IMG/VR virus record: IMGVR_UViG_3300044684_000031
Span: 1 to 22,321 of that record
Reading direction: 5' to 3' (one strand)
DNA length: 22,321 bases
Origin: a virus
Position numbers and translations under genes: made by a program. Each line of letters opens with the position of its first letter. Position 1 is the stretch's first letter. Below, one piece after another: positions 3,356-14,160 of the stretch. The notes under the pieces are model-generated. The model saw nothing but the letters and a program-made list of their open reading frames with translations, had not been told where the DNA came from and ran no database searches.

Positions 3356-5230
3356 TCAGCTCATCCCTGTGTTGGCTTGAGGCACCATGAAGCTGTAGCG
3401 CTTCACGGCATTGCCGAACTCGCGCGCGATGCCTGCGGCGTCCGTGGCTTGCGTATGGATATTGATCGGGCCGTTCACGTGCGTTTCGGCGTGCGACGTG
3501 CTCGTCGACGTCGATACGCGCGGCGCTGGCACCCCTGCAGCCGCAGTCTGCCCGGCGATCTGTGCGGCATTTTGCTGACCTATCGTCGAATACAAGATGT
3601 TGGCGTAGGCCCGCCGGTTCGCGATGTTCGCCTCGGCCGCACCCGGACGCTCATACATCGAGGAATGGATCGCCGCAGCCTGAGCCGGCGTGAGAGCAGC
3701 GCGCAGCGCGCGACCGGCGGCCTGCTCTTTTCCCTTGGTCAGCTCGTATTGCATGAATGCGAGCTGCTCTTCGAAGGTCGATTCCTCAAGACCGTGGCCC
3801 GCAAACTTACGAAAGTCGCCGACGCGGCTTCCGAGCCACTGTCCAATGCCAAGAGCTCCACTCGCCGGATTGCGCGCAGTCGGATCCAGATGACTCTCTT
3901 GCGTGAGACTGCCGGCGATGCCCGCCGCCTGAGCCGGAGACCAACCTTGACTGATGAAGTAGTCCATCGCTTGCTTCTGGCGAGCGGCTTCCGACGTGCC
4001 GAACGACTTCTTGAGCCATGCGCCGAGCTTGCCAAAGCCGCCCGGCGGCGGCTGATCGACGTTCGGCGTGACGGCTCCTCCTGCCTGAGCCTCGGCGACG
4101 TATTGATCGTGATTCGGGCCAGCCGGAATTGCCTTGTCGAAGGCCAGCTTGCGCACCTCCTCGGCCACGAGCCCAAGTGCCACCAGTGCGCCCGGGCCCG
4201 AGGTCGCGATGCGCGCCAAACCGCCGCCGACACCGCCGAGCGCGGACGCCAGCCGAAAGAGCGGCATGGCGATCGACAGGATCTTGAGTGCGCCAAGCGC
4301 GACGATAACGTTCTTCCAGCCGCCAACTGCCTGCGCTGCGTCGTTCGCCATTTCGACGAACTTGCTCACGTCCTTGTTCGCCTCATCAAGCCATTCGCTG
4401 ATGTCGCCCTTGTGCGCTGCAACCCAATCGGAGGCCTTCTGTAGCTGGCCGATCCACTTCTCGAACGTCGGCATCAGATCGAGCAAGATCGTCGTGCCGA
4501 CGTATTGCAGGCGATCGCGCACGTCGAGCCATTCGTTTTTCAGCTCGAGCGCGCGCTTGGCCTGCTCTTCCGTGATCGCCGAGTTCTTCTTCTGGGCGTC
4601 GACGAGCGCGAGCACGGCCTGCGGACCCTGCTTGAGGAAATTGAACTCGTCGTCGCCGATGCCCATCGCTTGCGCGACGAAGCGCGCGCGGCCAGGGTCG
4701 ACGTCGAACATCTGCTTGATGATGCGCGAGCGCGCGAGCAGGTAGCTGTTGCCATCCTTGAGATCCTTGGCGGAGCCGCCCATGCGAAGAAACCATTGCA
4801 CACCCTCGGTCATCTGGCCGAATTTGAGCTTCGAAACGTCGCCCTGCGAGGCTTGCAATGCAGCGGTGATGCCCTCGGCCGAACCGCCTGCGCGTTGAGC
4901 CGCGCGCTGCCATGCGGAGAGATCACGCGTGCTCATCTGCAGGTTCTTTGCCATGAAACCGAGATTGGCGGCTCCGTTGATCGTGCTCTCAGCGAATTCC
5001 TTGATGCCGACGCCAGCAGTGAAGATCGCGGCGAGCGCGAGCACTTCGGTGCGCAGCCGGCGAAACGAGTCGGCCGCCTTCTTGTTTTGCTCCTCGATGT
5101 CCTTGGCGGCCTTGCGCTCTTCGGCGGTGAGCTTCTTCGTGGCCGAGGAAGCCTCGGATTTACCGCGCTTGAACGCTGCCGTATCGAGGCCGAGAGTTAC
5201 GACTAGCGCGTCAACGATCGTCATGCCCAC
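3356..5230 (-). CDS. Tape measure protein with C-terminal tail lysozyme domain
   Basis: 624 residues. The N-terminus (VDALVVTLGLDTAAFKRG) and the Lys/Glu-rich coiled coil at 25-62 are typical of short tape measures. Hydrophobic stretches lie at about 62-80 and 304-360. Residues about 420-545 form a phage tail lysozyme domain: DYFISQGWSPAQAAGIAG, then SLTQESHLDP with Glu445 as likely catalytic acid, and GALGIGQWLGSRVGDF. This domain would cut peptidoglycan during DNA entry. A Ser/Thr-rich tail follows. The start is GTG 5230, preceded at 9 bases by AAAGGAG; the ATG two codons later is 15 bases away and less likely. By the usual 1.5 angstrom per residue, the length suggests a tail near 90 nm. 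Confidence 0.9.
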   Translation of the reverse strand: MGMTIVDALVVTLGLDTAAFKRGKSEASSATKKLTAEERKAAKDIEEQNKKAADSFRRLRTEVLALAAIFTAGVGIKEFAESTINGAANLGFMAKNLQMSTRDLSAWQRAAQRAGGSAEGITAALQASQGDVSKLKFGQMTEGVQWFLRMGGSAKDLKDGNSYLLARSRIIKQMFDVDPGRARFVAQAMGIGDDEFNFLKQGPQAVLALVDAQKKNSAITEEQAKRALELKNEWLDVRDRLQYVGTTILLDLMPTFEKWIGQLQKASDWVAAHKGDISEWLDEANKDVSKFVEMANDAAQAVGGWKNVIVALGALKILSIAMPLFRLASALGGVGGGLARIATSGPGALVALGLVAEEVRKLAFDKAIPAGPNHDQYVAEAQAGGAVTPNVDQPPPGGFGKLGAWLKKSFGTSEAARQKQAMDYFISQGWSPAQAAGIAGSLTQESHLDPTARNPASGALGIGQWLGSRVGDFRKFAGHGLEESTFEEQLAFMQYELTKGKEQAAGRALRAALTPAQAAAIHSSMYERPGAAEANIANRRAYANILYSTIGQQNAAQIAGQTAAAGVPAPRVSTSTSTSHAETHVNGPINIHTQATDAAGIAREFGNAVKRYSFMVPQANTGMS

Positions 5231-5232
5231 GA

Positions 5233-5403
5233 TCAGTTTCTCCTTTCGCTTGCGACGCGCTCGTTGTAGCTGTCGACGATGATTGTTTCTAGCAGATCAT
5301 GCAGGTCTTGTTGTCCGTAGACGGTTTGCAGCTCATGCAGCGTGGCCCTCCCGCTCGAGACGACCCGGCCGATCGTGCGCGGCACATTGGGATAATCGAT
5401 CAG
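5233..5403 (-). CDS. Tail assembly chaperone C-terminal extension, -1 frame (no own start)
   Basis: A 56-residue open frame, LIDYPNVPRTIGRVVSSG onward, ending at TGA 5233-5235. It continues the chaperone gene in the -1 frame across its stop codon at 5400. The -1 frame is open back to 5523 on the minus strand. There is no ATG in frame and no ribosome site in front of the only GTG (5385), so it is most easily explained as the tail of a frameshifted fusion, as in lambda G/GT. The text (LHELQTVYGQQDLHDLLETI, then VDSYNER) is well-formed protein with a helical C-terminus, and it sits directly before the tape measure, where G-T extensions lie. The exact slip point is not settled. It could also be a re-initiated small protein. 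Confidence 0.6.
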   Translation of the reverse strand: MIDYPNVPRTIGRVVSSGRATLHELQTVYGQQDLHDLLETIIVDSYNERVASERRN

Positions 5404-5840
5404 GCCTCTGACTGATTCGCCGCTCCAAGCGCCTGCACGGATTGGGCGGCGGCGATAAAAGAATCCATGTGCAGCATTAGCACAGCCTTGCGCAGCTTCA
5501 GCCGCGTGGCGACCTCCTCGATGTCATCTTCGATCAGCATGCGTGCGCCGCCTGGCTTGCCCGGTTCGAACTCATATTGAATACAGGTCATCATCTCGTC
5601 GAAGAGAGGCTTCGCGAGCTCGTAGGGGACCTTCGAGAGCGATTTGATGCCGAGCGCCGCGACGCCAGCTAGGCCGGACGCGAGGATCTCGTCGGGTACC
5701 TCGACACCGCAATTCATGACGGTGAAGAGTGCGCGGGTGGCCCATTCTTCCGAGCGGGCCGCCGACATTTCCTCGAGGAGGAAGCGCTTGCCCTTGTCGC
5801 GACCGTCCGTCGCGAGAAACGACGATTGCTTGCGTGCCAT
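5400..5840 (-). CDS. Tail assembly chaperone
   Basis: 146 residues, mostly helical, in the position between tail tube and tape measure that tail assembly chaperones hold in most long-tailed phages. It begins MARKQSSFLATDGRDKGKRF, has EEWATRALFTVMNCG (about 31-45) and an acidic/basic helix IEDDIEEVATRLKLRKAV near 105-122. This helix precedes the region where a -1 shift would be needed to enter the overlapping 5233-5403 frame. Start ATG 5840 is one base after the tube gene's stop; no good Shine-Dalgarno is visible there, so translation probably depends on coupling to the upstream gene. The role is inferred from position and the frameshift arrangement rather than from a clear motif. Confidence 0.7.
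   Translation of the reverse strand: MARKQSSFLATDGRDKGKRFLLEEMSAARSEEWATRALFTVMNCGVEVPDEILASGLAGVAALGIKSLSKVPYELAKPLFDEMMTCIQYEFEPGKPGGARMLIEDDIEEVATRLKLRKAVLMLHMDSFIAAAQSVQALGAANQSEA
5454..5462 (-). promoter_or_regulatory. Candidate -1 frameshift slip site of the tail chaperone
   Basis: On the minus strand the chaperone reads TCT TTT ATC here. A Phe tRNA on TTT can re-pair with TTT one base back, moving into the -1 frame that stays open to 5233. It is the only T- or A-run in the allowed window 5403-5523. It is not a classic X-XXY-YYZ heptamer, since the next codon would not re-pair well, so this is a candidate only. Confidence 0.25.
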
Positions 5841-5841
5841 A

Positions 5842-6276
5842 TCAGTACGGGGCCGGGACGACCGACTCCCAAGTGATTTCGTAGTTCTGCGGTTGCAGCG
5901 TCTTTTTCCCGTCCGGGATGATCTTGCCGCGCGTGAGCGTGCCATTGTTCAGCGAGAACTTCTTACGAGGGCCCGGCAACGTGATAACACCCGTGGCCGT
6001 ATATATGTCCTTGATCGTGTTCTGCGCCGTGATCCACGTGTCGAGCAGCAGGATTGAATCGGAGTTGGCCTGCAGCGAGAAACGCCATTTCACATTGAAC
6101 GGAACCCAGCCGCTCGACTGTTTGCCGTCAAGGCCAAGCGATACTTCGGCGAGCTCGACGTCGTCGGTATCGAAAATGTCCTCGGCCGTATAGCCCTGAA
6201 GCTGCTGCGCAACTGGAAAGATCGTGGCGACCGCGAGCATGATGACGCTGTTGGCGCTAGTGATTGAGCCTGCCAT
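5842..6276 (-). CDS. Tail tube protein
   Basis: 144 residues directly after the sheath gene, the usual place of the contractile tube protein. It is beta-rich with one long helix, starting MAGSITSANSVIMLAVATIF; the part LQGYTAEDIFDTDDVELAEV (about 26-45) followed by FNVKWRFSLQANSDSILLLD matches the tube-type pattern of DUF3277-like proteins (a polymerizing beta-barrel with an exposed loop). The family call is from memory and order. Start ATG 6276 has AAGGGG five bases upstream in the 9-base gap after the sheath stop. About 140 residues is normal for this tube type. Confidence 0.7.
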   Translation of the reverse strand: MAGSITSANSVIMLAVATIFPVAQQLQGYTAEDIFDTDDVELAEVSLGLDGKQSSGWVPFNVKWRFSLQANSDSILLLDTWITAQNTIKDIYTATGVITLPGPRKKFSLNNGTLTRGKIIPDGKKTLQPQNYEITWESVVPAPY

Positions 6277-6285
6277 GTTTGCCCC

Positions 6286-8007
6286 TTACTGAACGAGGAT
6301 CGAGGCCATCTGAACGACTTGCACCGATCCGCCGTCCATGTACCAGAAGTTGATCGGAGGAGATCCGCGCGCAGCTCGCACGGTCGGCGTCGTCTGCGAG
6401 GCGAGCACTTGCAGATACCAGCCGCGAGACGACAAGATGCCGTCGATTTTCAGACCGGCAGCGTTGTTCACTTCAACAGCTTGCGCGCTCGAGAGCAGCA
6501 CGCCCGCCTGCAAGCCGCCGAACTTGGCAAACTGCGTGATAGTGTCCATCAGCCAGGACTCGATAATGGCGTCGCCAGCCGCGTTGTACGGCACGGAGTT
6601 CGATTGCGTGAGGCCTTCGACGATATCGAGTTGAAACTGGTTGTTGAGCCAGATCTGGTTGACGTAGGAATCGATCCACTCATACTGACCCGCGATCTGC
6701 CCGGGCGTGAAGAATGTGAATTGATCGTTAGCTGTGGCGAACTGCGCGACCATGTTGTAACCGTTCGCCTTCAGGTTCGTGTAGATCGTGGCATCGGTGA
6801 CAGTCGGCGTCAGGCCCGACTGCGATTTGAAGTCGAGCGTGATGCGACCGTTCTCCGCGGTGAAGTCGATCGAGGCGATAGCGCCGAGCAGGAATGCCGC
6901 GTCGTTCACGTCTTGGAATACAGGCACGACGCCCGACATTTCGCCCTGCTCGACGAGATAGCCGAACGAGGCCGTGGCCGGGTTGTTCGTCGTCGGGCTT
7001 AGATCCGTGTCCCAGCCCGCATAGACGTAGCGGTTTCCTTGCGCCGCCGTCCAAGTGGCGAAGGCCATCTTCTGCGTGTTCCCGGTCCCATTGTCGGGAT
7101 CAAAGTCCGTCATGAAGCCGGCCCAGTTCTGCGTCATCTTGGCGAGCGCATTCATTGCGGCGGCCGGCGTCGATGCAACTGCGCCTTGCGAAAGCACTGC
7201 GCCCGTGGCCGACGTGAGGTTCAAGCTCGCCGAGAGCGTGCCAGTGGCAAAGGCGATCGTCGACGCCGCGCCCGTGATACCTGAGGTAATCGTGAACGCG
7301 CTCGAGGTGCTATCGAACGCGACGGCCGGCGCAACGAATGCGCCTGTAAGCGCTTCGCTCGCGACCGTCTGCGTGTTGTTCACGCTGTAGGTGCCGGTGC
7401 CTCCCGTACCGGTCAGGAAACCGGTAATCACGGTGCCGGCAGCGACGCCCGTGCCGCTGAGCTGATGGCCAATCGCAATTGCGCCGGAGGTCACCGCAGA
7501 GACGGTCAGCGTCGTGCCGCTGATCGAGCCTGTCACGCTTGCCTGCGTTTGCGTCGTCGCGGCGAGCCCCGTTTGAATCAGTGCGGCGGCGGCCGAGAAG
7601 CTCGACGCGCTCGCCAGATTGATCGACGCCGCCGACCACGTGAAGCCGTCAACGGCCACCGAGAGCGAGCCGGAGAGCGCCTGCAACTGCGAGAGCGTCA
7701 TGGCGGACAGCGAGCCGCCGCGCAACCATGCGGCAACCGGCGCCGTCGGATATTGCATAAAGCCGATCGAACCCGGCTTTTTCGTTGAATTCGAAAAACC
7801 ACCGAAATACTTCGTCGCCAATTGAGCCTGGAGCGACTGGCTGCCGAAGTAATTGGCGACCGATGTTTGCAAAGGAAAGGTCGGAACCGCGCCGATCGGC
7901 ACGCGCGTGCTCGTCGTCAGAATGATCCCGACGAGATCGAGCGCAGTGCCGCCCGCGCTCAGTACGCTCGGAATGGCCGACGCGATTAGGGATGCCGGGA
8001 TCGACAT
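6286..8007 (-). CDS. Contractile tail sheath protein (DUF3383-like)
   Basis: 573 residues. Sheath features: N-terminal region ending in a beta segment ([14 protein letters not shown]), a scaffold for the tail surface in the middle, and a conserved C-terminal domain with [40 protein letters not shown], and [15 protein letters not shown], which match DUF3383 sheath proteins. The C-terminal arm would link neighbouring subunits. Residues about 157-226 look inserted: a Gly/Thr-rich beta block [27 protein letters not shown] that also occurs in the decoration-type protein at 11403-12101. Start ATG 8007 has GGAG eight bases upstream. It lies 3 bases after the terminator gene. Confidence 0.88.
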
Positions 8008-10389: not shown

Positions 10390-11406
10390 TCAGACTCCGA
10401 GCATCTGCTCGATGAAGTTCGGGTAGTAGATCACCGCGCCCCACGCATGCCCCGACTTCTTCTCGGCATAGTAGGACGAGTGCCGCACGACACCGTGCGC
10501 ACGCATGCGCTCGGCGTATGCCAGCTCGCCGGTGGGCTGACCTTCGACGTCCTGCGCAATCATCTGCACAAGGTTGCCGCTGCCGGTAGCGAACTCGGGG
10601 ATCGTCTCGATCGTCATGTTCGGATAGGCGAGCTTCAAGCGGTCGATGAGCACCTGGCCGTAAGTGTTTTGCTTCGTCAGGTTCTGCTCGGAGACGTTCG
10701 GGATGCCGACCTTCACACGTGACTTCGTGTTGACGAGGCCGTTGGCCGACGCGATGAGGTTCTTCCAGAGCAGCACGAAGTCGGCGTAGATCTCGTCGCT
10801 GTTCTTGCCGTCCCAGGTCGTCGCGCCCGTCGTCGCGCCCGTCGTCGGGGCAACCGGCGCCGTGAGCGCCGGATCGTTCATCGCGCCATAGTTCTGCAGG
10901 CCAGAAACTCCGAACAGGAAGATGCTGTTTTCCTTCTTGCGCAGGATGAGCGCCGAGGCGATTTGCTGGCGCTGCGCATAGTTCAAGCGCGCCTTCGCGG
11001 CGACGTCCATCTGCTTGTCGCCCCACTGCGTGTTCGTCTGGAACCCGTAGTTTTGGCGTTGCGGGAACTGCGCGTTGTGGCCCGACTGGCCGTTCTCGCT
11101 GAAGTCGCCGTAGGTGGCCGTTTCACCGGTTGATTCCACGACCATGAACGTCGTCGTGTTCGTCGCCCAATCGCCCTTTTGCACGGCGCCATAGAGCAAC
11201 TCGGCGTTCATCGGGGCCACGAGCACATCGATCACGCGCGGATCGAAGTAGTTCGTGAGCATGGCCGGGATGCCGTTGTTCGGCGTCGTGACGAGCGGCC
11301 CGGCCGCATCCATCGCCGCGACGAGCTTCGTGCGCGTGGGCGCGTCGAGCAGCTCGGCGCCAGGCGGCAAATAGATGCCGTAGTCCCTCAATTGGTCGAG
11401 CTTCAT
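10390..11406 (-). CDS. Major capsid protein (DUF2184-like)
   Basis: 338 residues. The order fits DUF2184 capsid proteins: N-terminal arm with YFDPRVIDVLVAPMNAELLY (53-72), a strand block TTTFMVVESTGETATYGDFS, a long spine helix (QMDVAAKARLNYAQRQQIAS, 132-151), FLFGVSGLQNYGAMNDP, and a C-terminal end RHSSYYAEKKSGHAWGAVIY. It would form the icosahedral shell with an HK97-type fold. A Thr/Gly/Ala repeat at residues 188-197 (TTGATTGATT) is encoded by a 12-base tandem repeat. Start ATG 11406 overlaps the previous stop by ATGA, so it is coupled to the decoration-type gene. The size is usual for the family. Confidence 0.85.
   Translation of the reverse strand: MKLDQLRDYGIYLPPGAELLDAPTRTKLVAAMDAAGPLVTTPNNGIPAMLTNYFDPRVIDVLVAPMNAELLYGAVQKGDWATNTTTFMVVESTGETATYGDFSENGQSGHNAQFPQRQNYGFQTNTQWGDKQMDVAAKARLNYAQRQQIASALILRKKENSIFLFGVSGLQNYGAMNDPALTAPVAPTTGATTGATTWDGKNSDEIYADFVLLWKNLIASANGLVNTKSRVKVGIPNVSEQNLTKQNTYGQVLIDRLKLAYPNMTIETIPEFATGSGNLVQMIAQDVEGQPTGELAYAERMRAHGVVRHSSYYAEKKSGHAWGAVIYYPNFIEQMLGV
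10817..10847 (-). repeat. 12-base tandem repeat inside the capsid gene
   Basis: The plus strand shows GTCGTCGCGCCC twice in direct succession and seven bases of a third copy. It is in frame and encodes the TTGATTGATT segment of the capsid protein (residues 188-197), probably a surface loop. Confidence 0.85.
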
Positions 11407-12101
11407 GCGAGGTTACTCCAGGACGAAATTTTGATAACCGAGCCGGCCGCGCCGCCGCGCTCGACCTTGAACGGGGTTTCCACGTTCAAGGTGGCCGTGA
11501 CAGTGACGCCGGTTCCGCTCGCGCTCGCGTTCGCGCTGAGCGTATAAGTTCCCGCCCCGCCGGTGCCTGTGCCGAGCGCGCTGATATACGTGCCCGCCGG
11601 GATGCCCGTGCCGCTCACCGGCTGACCGACTTGGATGTTGGCGCCACTGTTGGCCGTCACCGTGAGCACGTTGCTGCCCGAGGTCGTGTTGGCCGTGATG
11701 CCGGCGTTCGTGCTTGCCGAATTCGTCGCGGCAAACGAGAGCGTGCCGTCGCCATAGTTGGCGTAGACCTTCTGGCCGATCGTCGCGGCGTTGGCGGCCG
11801 ACGAGGCGAACCATTCGCCTTGCTGCGCGACCTGCACCGGAAAGCCCGACGGCACCTGCATGCTGGCTTCCTGCAGGTAGTTCGGCAGGATGCCGTTCTG
11901 ATCGCGTACAGCGAAGCCCAGCGGCTTGCCGGTGCCGGAGTTCGTGACCTGATTGTCGGTATCGGTGCCCGGCCATACGAAAGCGGCGACCGTCACGGTG
12001 CCCTGCGCGTTGCGCGAGATCACCGAAATCGGGTTCATCGAGGAGCGGCTACCGGGGACGCCGACCTCGGGCTGGAGTCGTACTGCGTTGGGGAATCCCA
12101 T
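11403..12101 (-). CDS. Head decoration/structural cement-type protein
   Basis: 232 residues, just before the capsid gene. The N-terminal 130 residues (MGFPNAVRLQPEVGVPGSRS, VTVAAFVWPGTDTDNQVTNS, GKPLGFAVRDQNGILPNYLQ) look like a P22-gp10/cement-type head protein: alternating strands with a 'P-L-G-F-x-V-R' strand. Residues about 133-205 are a Gly/Thr/Ser beta domain (QPVSGTGIPAGTYISALGT, then GGAGTYTLS) nearly the same as the block inside the sheath. The C-terminus resumes the core fold (ETPFKVERGGAAGSVIKISS). Start ATG 12101 has TAAGGA nine bases upstream, whose TAA is the protease stop. Cement role is inferred from position and style; it may also carry the receptor-like domain on the capsid surface. 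Confidence 0.65.
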   Translation of the reverse strand: MGFPNAVRLQPEVGVPGSRSSMNPISVISRNAQGTVTVAAFVWPGTDTDNQVTNSGTGKPLGFAVRDQNGILPNYLQEASMQVPSGFPVQVAQQGEWFASSAANAATIGQKVYANYGDGTLSFAATNSASTNAGITANTTSGSNVLTVTANSGANIQVGQPVSGTGIPAGTYISALGTGTGGAGTYTLSANASASGTGVTVTATLNVETPFKVERGGAAGSVIKISSWSNLA

Positions 12102-12113
12102 GATCGACTGTCC

Positions 12114-13361
12114 TTACGCGTGATTGATCTTGGCGAGGTGCGGGAACTGCTTATGCAACTCGTCGACTGCCGCGGCGTCGGCCGCCGAGACCGGCGCCGG
12201 ATTCGCGCTTTTCGTGAGCAGCACGTCGACGATGCCCGCATAGGCCGCCTTGTCGTGCTTCTCCGGCTCCATGCCGCCGACCTTGAGCGCGTGCGCAAAG
12301 ATTGCCTCGGCCGAGTCGAACGCCATCGCGTCGATGCGGCCGGTGATCGGCTCGACCTTCTGCGCGGCGCGGAATCGCCCTTCGATCGACTGGCGCGCGG
12401 CCGTCGCGGCGGCGTCGGCCGCCGTCTTGATCTTCTCGTCCATCGCGCCGGCGTTCTTCGCTTCCTCGGCCTTCTTCGCCTCGTCGGCGCGTTTGGCCGC
12501 TTCATCCTTCGCCGCCTTCTCTTCCGGCGATTCGTCGTTCGCGCCGCCACCGCCCTCCATGCGAGCGAGCAGCTTCTTGAGCAACTCGGTGATCTCGCCG
12601 TTCTCGGCATCCTTGGCGGCTTGCTGCTGCGCCTCGCCAAGCTGGTTCATCTCGTCGAGCGCTTCTTGCATGGCGGCTTGGGCCGACTCGGTGTCGAGCC
12701 CCTCGTCCATCGCCACCTTGAGCTTGGGCATCCGCGCCTTGAGCGCTGCCAATTGCTTCGGGTTCAATTTCACGGTGCGTACCTGTTGGGGTGGAGAGAG
12801 TTGGGAGTCGGCGACCAGGACATCGGGCCCGGCGCGGCCCTCTACGACGAGCGCGACGTGATTGCCTTCAATCTGCGTCATGCGTATGTCGTATGGCGAG
12901 CCATTATATGAGCCGTTTTCCAAAATCGGAATGTAACGGTAGGAACTCGACAATTCGCGCTGTTCGCCGGAATCAATCTTCTCGATGTACTCGGCATCCC
13001 AAAAGCCTAAGCTATTGTCCAGATACTCACCGTCGAATATCGGATTCGAACCAATTGCGCCGATAATCTTCTCTTTTTGCGGGTTTTCGGCAGTATGGTG
13101 AGAGTGCACCAAGAGGATAGGCAGGTTCTTGAACGTGTGCGCACCTTTGGATAGCTCCTCGGGCGGCCGGAAGACGTTGTAGACACGATCAGGGTCGAGC
13201 CCAAGCTCTTCCCAATTGACGATTTCTCGCCCCCAATAGGGATTGACGCCAGCCTTCGAGATATGACTCCGCTCGACAAACAGGCGACCGTCTTTATCTA
13301 AATTTCGAACCGTTTCTCGGTCAAAAGCGAGGATTACCTCTCGTTTATTCGGCTTCATCAT
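12114..13361 (-). CDS. Prohead protease (DUF2213-like) with fused scaffold-like C-terminus
   Basis: 415 residues. The first 200 match the DUF2213 pattern: LPILLVHSHHTAENPQKEKI (80-99) and GEQRELSSSYRYIPI (132-146) supply the His and Ser expected of this maturation-protease group. From about 225 to 330 the protein is Glu/Lys/Ala coiled coil with a Gly-rich hinge at 270-274, like a scaffold. The C-terminal end is helical. So protease and scaffold appear joined in one gene. The ATG pair at 13361/13358 overlaps the head gene by 14-17 bases, with AGG five or eight bases upstream; the longer reading to 13541 lies inside that gene and is rejected. The 5' half is AT-richer than its neighbours. Confidence 0.75.
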   Translation of the reverse strand: MMKPNKREVILAFDRETVRNLDKDGRLFVERSHISKAGVNPYWGREIVNWEELGLDPDRVYNVFRPPEELSKGAHTFKNLPILLVHSHHTAENPQKEKIIGAIGSNPIFDGEYLDNSLGFWDAEYIEKIDSGEQRELSSSYRYIPILENGSYNGSPYDIRMTQIEGNHVALVVEGRAGPDVLVADSQLSPPQQVRTVKLNPKQLAALKARMPKLKVAMDEGLDTESAQAAMQEALDEMNQLGEAQQQAAKDAENGEITELLKKLLARMEGGGGANDESPEEKAAKDEAAKRADEAKKAEEAKNAGAMDEKIKTAADAAATAARQSIEGRFRAAQKVEPITGRIDAMAFDSAEAIFAHALKVGGMEPEKHDKAAYAGIVDVLLTKSANPAPVSAADAAAVDELHKQFPHLAKINHA

Positions 13362-14160
13362 CAACGCCTGGAATGAGTGGAGCGGCGACGCATCCGCAAT
13401 TGATCTCTTCGCCCGGGAATACGTACTTGTCGCCGATTTTAAGACCCTTCGATAATTCGAAAACCTCGCCGTTGGCCCGGACGTGGTCAGCGCGTGGATG
13501 CTTGCCGCCGCCCGTGTGCAACCAGCGTGCTTTCGTGACACCCATCGAGAGTTGCCTGGCGCGCGCCATCTGCGCCGTCGCCTTGTTGTTCTGATCGTTG
13601 GCGATCAGCTTGGCGCGGCGCCGCGTGATTTGATAGCGCTGCTCTAGCTCATCGGTGAGGGTTTTCAGGTCCCGGCCCGCGGCAACGCTGCGCATGACGA
13701 GCCCCTCGACCTCGCTCGCGTAGTCGGCCGAGATTGACTTGATGAGCGAGACGTTTTCCTCGACCGTCGCCTGCATGACGGTGTTCGTCAGCAGCGTGTC
13801 CTTGACCGACACCGACATGCCGGTGAGCGCGACGGCCGCCTGCTTGGTGGCGTTCGTCGCGTGCTGATCGACCTTGGAGATGAAAAGGCGCGCGAGCGGT
13901 GGCGCCTTCTCGTCGAACATCTTGCGCCACTGCTTGGCGCGGCGCCGCAGTTGATCGGCGAGATCTCGCGCCGGGCTATGGTCGGACGCGATGACGATGT
14001 CGTCCTCGCGATCGCGGTAGGTGGCCGTGAGCCAGTAGACGAACGAGCGGTGCATCTCATCGATGAGCCGCTCGAGCCTGCGCTGGTATTCGATGCGAAG
14101 CGCGGCGCTCGGGCGCGCCGGCCGCATCTCGCCGCGCGCTTTAGGTGCGCGCGCCGGCAT
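13345..14160 (-). CDS. Minor head protein (Mu gpF/SPP1 gp7-like)
   Basis: 271 residues. The C-terminal 223-258 has the family signature: R-A-D-H-V-R-A-N-G, a spacer, then FPGEEINCGCVAAPL, the 'P-G-x-x-x-x-C-x-C-x' end seen in Mu F and SPP1 gp7. Before it are helices with RYQITRRRAKLIANDQNNKA (175-194). These proteins enter the head with the portal and assist capsid assembly or DNA ejection. Start ATG 14160 shares its last base with the portal stop (TAATG). Cys255 and Cys257 could bind metal. The length is in the usual range. Confidence 0.85.
   Translation of the reverse strand: MPARAPKARGEMRPARPSAALRIEYQRRLERLIDEMHRSFVYWLTATYRDREDDIVIASDHSPARDLADQLRRRAKQWRKMFDEKAPPLARLFISKVDQHATNATKQAAVALTGMSVSVKDTLLTNTVMQATVEENVSLIKSISADYASEVEGLVMRSVAAGRDLKTLTDELEQRYQITRRRAKLIANDQNNKATAQMARARQLSMGVTKARWLHTGGGKHPRADHVRANGEVFELSKGLKIGDKYVFPGEEINCGCVAAPLIPGVDDEAE

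Follow-up and report, generated by a model that had tools for sequence, protein, structure and literature searches.

A single-tRNA slip on a U_UUU tetramer as the probable route to −1 frameshifting in a phage tail assembly chaperone gene

The tail assembly chaperone gene of this phage very likely produces a second, longer protein by programmed −1 ribosomal frameshifting, in which one tRNA-Phe slips on the tetramer U_UUU with the aid of a downstream hairpin. The DNA analyzed was the whole 22,321-nt stretch of IMG/VR record IMGVR_UViG_3300044684_000031, referred to here as the window. Most ribosomes would read to the UGA at 5402–5400 and release a 146-residue, G-like chaperone. A minority would be slowed by the GC-rich hairpin at 5451–5418 while the Phe codon UUU (5459–5457) occupies the decoding site. 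The tRNA-Phe would then slip one base back, from UUU to the overlapping UUU (5460–5458), after which the −1 frame (UAU CGC CGC ...) would be translated as far as its stop at 5233. The outcome would be a 202-residue G–T-like fusion beside the 146-residue chaperone. That ribosomes slip here, and that a minority do so, is inferred. The tRNA may slip in the A site or in the P site, and the two predict an identical protein. Full re-pairing would be possible for tRNA-Phe alone; for its neighbor on the Ser codon UCU just before, pairing with UUC would be required. If the two parts act as in lambda, the chaperone would bind the tape measure protein, with the C-terminal extension recruiting tail tube subunits.

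Table 1. Features of the chaperone locus and its neighbors in the window
Feature	Position	Strand	Basis
Tape measure protein	3356..5230	-	PHROG 9570 tape measure, 3.3e-71
−1 coding part of the proposed frameshift product, first codon after the slip (UAU) to stop, 74 aa	5233..5457	-	Open frame
Conserved T-like domain, LIDYPNVPRTIG...SERRN, 56 aa	5236..5403	-	PHROG 3976, alignment, model
Tail assembly chaperone, frame 0 product (G-like), 146 aa	5400..5840	-	PHROG 1932
Predicted stimulatory hairpin	5418..5451	-	Window fold and family-wide structure signal
Candidate U_UUU slip tetramer; Phe codon 5459–5457 preceded by U 5460	5457..5460	-	Conserved position in homologues
Virion structural protein	5842..6276	-	PF22764, E 1.7e-29; PHROG 1964
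Tail sheath	6286..8007	-	DUF3383, E 3.1e-130; PHROG 205 tail sheath

Results

The chaperone gene and its neighbors

The minus strand of the window carries a contractile-tail module consisting of sheath, likely tube, chaperone and tape measure genes. The product of 5842..6276 is likely the tail tube, judging from gene order. The chaperone gene is located between the tube and sheath genes and the tape measure gene, directly upstream of the latter, which is the G–GT type of arrangement. Its frame runs from ATG 5840 to TGA 5402–5400. The open reading frame listing offered an alternative upstream start at ATG 5945; homologues and the stop of the preceding gene at 5842 support 5840 as the probable start. 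The product matched the tail assembly chaperone family PHROG 1932 (E 3.6e-40), and tblastn matched it in 94 phage records.

In the structure model, the chaperone consists of strand–strand, helices, strand–strand and a long C-terminal helix, and the slip site falls inside this last helix. In a fold search against solved tail chaperones, the HK97 chaperone (2ob9) ranked third and fourth and YqbN (3klu) ranked 18th, with E-values of 2.4 and above. Sequence and fold searches of the PDB with the chaperone and with the extension gave nothing significant.

Two other features of the module were observed. The tape measure protein has a C-terminal lysozyme domain (PF18013, Phage_lysozyme2, residues 417–548). 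The sheath and a protein encoded at 11403–12101 on the minus strand, beside the likely capsid gene, have a short Gly/Thr-rich stretch in common (19 of 38 residues identical, E 0.003). The sheath copy also matches PHROGs of other proteins, and by its sequence the stretch is possibly a mobile surface module.

A conserved extension in the −1 frame

From 5523 to its own TGA at 5235–5233, no stop interrupts the −1 frame. The first-pass annotation had described it as a startless extension of the chaperone ending at 5400, with 56 well-formed residues, and both points were borne out. These last 56 residues, from the codon at 5403 onward, match PHROG 3976 (E 1.8e-22), a family listed with function unknown. 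A tblastn search matched the extension in 37 phage records (best E 2e-10), including phages of Klebsiella, Pseudomonas, Aeromonas, Bordetella, Pantoea and others, and in several of these records it is unannotated. With one extension query, 265 relatives were retrieved from viral contigs and 23 from bacterial genomes. A chance open frame was rejected on the basis of this protein conservation.

The alignment of the extension contains seven invariant residues among 29 diverse members. An AlphaFold 2 model, built from an alignment of the window and contig sequences only, is all-helical with a mean pLDDT of 91. PF21829 (DUF6889) matched one of the 29 members at E 0.018, and the window member had no match to it. 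A joint alignment of nine divergent fusions, intended as a search query, lacked conserved blocks.

The extension also matches near the C-terminus of PHROG 4774 and PHROG 18181, families of 170–177 residues whose members may be fused in frame or may represent annotated products of frameshifting. The same chaperone and extension pair is present at 13042–13715 of OZ035751.1, a record named Lambdavirus PDP110P1. Otherwise the pair was found here in sheath-bearing phages; the name of the record may be wrong or the module may have been exchanged.

The slip position and its variation among relatives

The sequence TCT TTT ATC is located exactly at 5462–5454, in the zero-frame context GAU UCU UUU AUC. 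No canonical X_XXY_YYZ heptamer is present in the overlap of the window. The tetramer U_UUU (5460–5457) has the three identical bases and the cognate A-site re-pairing in the −1 frame that define a Z_ZZN site. It is the single step in the 146 codons of the window chaperone at which a U precedes UUU or UUC (U|UUY), and it stands where the homologues carry theirs. The background of in-frame U|UUY in the upstream codons across the family is 34 of 7216 (0.47%).

In the first 11 homologues the extension lies in the −1 frame of the chaperone. Using the true chaperone frame, the same relation holds in 114 of 116 loci, a set gathered mostly via the extension, so that loci that had lost it would be missed. 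In the same 114 loci, a Phe codon with a U before it occupies one alignment position, mostly 53–110 nt upstream of the conserved piece; the U|UUY step was required when choosing the slip position, and one genome alone was without such a step. This genome, a Paraburkholderia panacisoli prophage, accounts for both exceptions (L037 and L107). Relative to the chaperone, the extension there lies in the +1 (or −2) frame just upstream of position 2501, and the T run has six T versus seven in the near relative L036 (GATTTTTTCTTC versus GATTTTTTTCTG). Either one base has been lost, in reality or by a sequencing error, or the frameshift is of a different type. Another 80 loci, which in part overlap the first set, behaved in the same way with one miss, L192. 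In this locus (around 1200–1500) the upstream chaperone frame is broken, yet the slip site reads GAT TTT TTC and its region is identical to that of L193; L192 is a copy that has decayed or been misassembled.

At the conserved position, 68 of the 84 distinct loci carry a canonical heptamer, in most cases U_UUU_UUN or G_GGU_UUU. The window site thus occupies the place of recognized slip sites. The remaining 16 loci, the window among them, have the tetramer U_UUY alone. Thirty-three further distinct contexts comprised 24 heptamers and nine tetramers, the latter now including CCU UUU. The first-pass annotation had singled out TCT TTT ATC as the only sensible candidate and had observed that it is not a standard heptamer. 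Both statements hold: the heptamers of the homologues align with it, and their A-site half is retained in the window. Its proposal of −1 shifting is likewise supported by these heptamers and by the conserved frame relation, which was the outcome of the homologue alignment it had suggested as a check.

The window clade comprises six rows (bootstrap/SH-aLRT 100/100). In this clade UCU, GCU and GGU precede an invariant UUU. UCU UUU AUC is common to the window, L013, L026 and L134. L029 has GCU UUU, and the GGU UUU of L030 and L032 makes up a full G_GGU_UUU heptamer. Over all loci the P-site codons are UCU, GCU, GGU, CAU, CCU, GAU, GUU and UUU, with U|UUY constant. Because the P-site codon drifts while U|UUY stays, the constant element is the A-site step. 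This pattern fits the rule of Sharma et al. (PMC4066793). Tetramer-only sites recur across the tree: mapping of the tetramer label gave 13 changes by parsimony, of which at least five are forced by well-supported branches.

An alternative is a tandem slip of two tRNAs on a degenerate heptamer, U_UCU_UUU, in which tRNA-Ser(GGA) would re-pair on UUC through a middle-base G–U pair. In the window, P-site re-pairing would need just this one G–U pair. Annotated tail chaperone frameshifts in PRFect include motifs other than XXXYYYZ, one of them named twoonefour (PMC10885494). This name fits TTCTTTT. However, close relatives read GAG UCU UUU (L026 and L134), GAG GCU UUU (L029) and GAU CAU UUC (L033). 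Since the P-site tRNA would re-pair poorly in these loci, we consider a two-tRNA slip unlikely. For this large family of contractile-tail phages, our assessment leans modestly towards U|UUY in the decoding site, together with the hairpin, being the essential element; heptamers would then be optional and repeatedly gained and lost, and the P-site codon would drift freely or tune the product ratio.

Coding constraint and the absence of start codons

In the window clade, the overlap lacks third-position bias, which fits two frames in use. Substitutions per codon position were.13/.12/.45 just upstream and.26/.25/.28 in the overlap. After the chaperone stop they follow the −1 phase, where amino-acid identity is 0.80 in the −1 frame versus 0.60–0.63 in the other two. 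Within the overlap itself identity is alike in all three frames (0.60–0.64), so the overlap by itself does not distinguish coding constraint from RNA constraint. The −1 frame residues FYRRRPI...LIDYPNVPR are alike across the clade.

A separate small T-like protein might instead arise by termination at UGA 5402–5400 and restart in the −1 frame, at the CUG in the CUGA overlap or at GUG 5385. Both the CTGA overlap at the stop and GTG 5385 exist, and some records annotate a separate gene. The first-pass annotation had offered re-initiation alongside a single-tRNA slip and had reported no ATG in the extension. Indeed, the window −1 frame has no ATG between the slip and the start of the conserved piece; it does have GTG 5385 in frame. 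This GTG is the Val codon of a conserved N-V-P and is an unlikely start because it is downstream of the invariant Asn; starting there would remove the conserved LIDYPN, including that Asn. Between the slip and the invariant Asn, 61 of the 84 loci, window included, contain no ATG, GTG or TTG in the −1 frame. An ATG or GTG with a Shine–Dalgarno-like stretch occurs in the −1 frame of five loci (L002, L005, L008, L012 and L114). These five may additionally make a separate T-like protein, yet L002, L005 and L008 have heptamers too. Moreover, the slip position stays constant although the chaperone stop lies anywhere from 12 to 150 nt beyond the slip site, coding constraint is seen in the −1 frame from the slip onward, and re-initiation would leave the conserved slip string and the hairpin unexplained. 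Re-initiation at CUG or GUG was therefore rejected as very unlikely, as most loci lack starts and an invariant residue lies upstream of the GTG; of the two mechanisms first suggested, the single-tRNA slip is the one favored by the drifting P site and constant U|UUY.

Heptamers in most relatives could also mean that the window site is a decayed remnant: the ancestral heptamer would have been lost, and too little fusion would now be made to be of use to the phage. We find this highly improbable. In L013, whose chaperone is 92% identical, the 26 bases GATTCTTTTATCGCCGCCGCCCAATC are the same. The −1 frame has remained open and conserved, as the identities after the chaperone stop show, and the recurrence of tetramer-only sites across the tree also argues against decay.

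A downstream hairpin conserved as structure

A hairpin, which the first-pass annotation had not mentioned, is predicted to begin 5 nt after the UUU codon. Its arms are CGCCGCCCAA (5′, 5451–5442) and UUGG-A-GCGGCG (3′, 5428–5418); the stem CGCCGC/GCGGCG is lengthened by CCAA/UUGG over a one-base bulge. Alone, the window hairpin is weak relative to shuffles, as 44 of 200 shuffles folded equally well (z −0.73), and in the family shuffle comparison the window z was −1.87. The prediction for the window is supported by the family, in which a predicted stimulatory structure follows the slip site.

Across the family, predicted stability peaks directly 3′ of the slip, with a mean MFE of −15.6 in 45-nt segments versus about −10 around it. 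Relative to dinucleotide shuffles, the folding z averaged −1.51 directly after the slip, compared with −0.04 to −0.33 at the six offsets used as controls (Wilcoxon p 2e-8). A strong uninterrupted GC-rich stem was present 4–13 nt after the codon in 65% of loci, versus 4–13% at control positions (about 5% at most of them). Stems most often start 4–9 nt downstream. Among 53 loci there were 42 different stems, indicating that pairing is kept while the sequence changes. Thus, the downstream hairpin is conserved as a structure and not as a sequence.

RNAalifold on a MAFFT alignment of 27 downstream regions gave no consensus structure, because the stem columns are not in register in the alignment. 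Per-locus folding and the stem search with control offsets were used in its place. Rfam gave no match in the window, and no Shine–Dalgarno-like stimulator was evident in the sequence upstream of the slip.

Slippage during transcription, with RNA polymerase and not the ribosome slipping on the U run, would draw on the runs of seven T in some relatives, but the window has just four T, too short for transcriptional slippage, and a hairpin spaced 4–9 nt downstream fits ribosomal frameshifting; this explanation was rejected on the four T and is extremely improbable.

Discussion

Neither frameshifting of tail chaperones nor the tetramer slip site is new in itself. As in lambda gpG/gpGT, a chaperone is followed by a startless −1 extension just upstream of the tape measure gene, and in lambda the −1 frameshift occurs at a low level (PMC5009743). 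The likeness rests on arrangement, not on direct sequence comparison, and the present phage differs in its contractile tail (a sheath gene is present) and in having a U_UUU tetramer rather than a heptamer. The window chaperone and extension belong to the families of the PHROG 1932 and PHROG 3976 gene pair. The slip site of lambda is a heptamer of G plus A.

The U_UUU site resembles the Z_ZZN sites of the IS1 and IS3 families, where a single tRNA slips on U_UUU or U_UUC (PMC4066793); the product there is a transposase, whereas here it is a tail chaperone. In E. coli both tetramers shift when a structure follows and hardly shift without a stimulator, and stimulatory structures generally start 5–8 nt downstream (PMC4066793). 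PRFect, a motif-based method trained on SEA-PHAGES genomes, reported many annotated phage frameshifts without XXXYYYZ, mostly in tail chaperones (PMC10885494). Unlike its motifs, the homologue comparison here suggests that the A-site U|UUY alone is required. We found no paper on tetramer sites in this chaperone family in a search that mostly did not extend to subscription journals.

The locus is very probably an ordinary phage trick with an unusually stripped-down slip site, gained and lost repeatedly by relatives. Searches based on heptamers, the usual approach, would miss about one locus in five here (16 of 84), and the conserved T-like piece is often omitted from annotation. The close natural variants UCU, GCU and GGU, with the same UUU and a similar hairpin, would let the effect of the P site on the G:GT ratio be measured. 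Such variants also bear on how tail assembly tolerates changes in this ratio.
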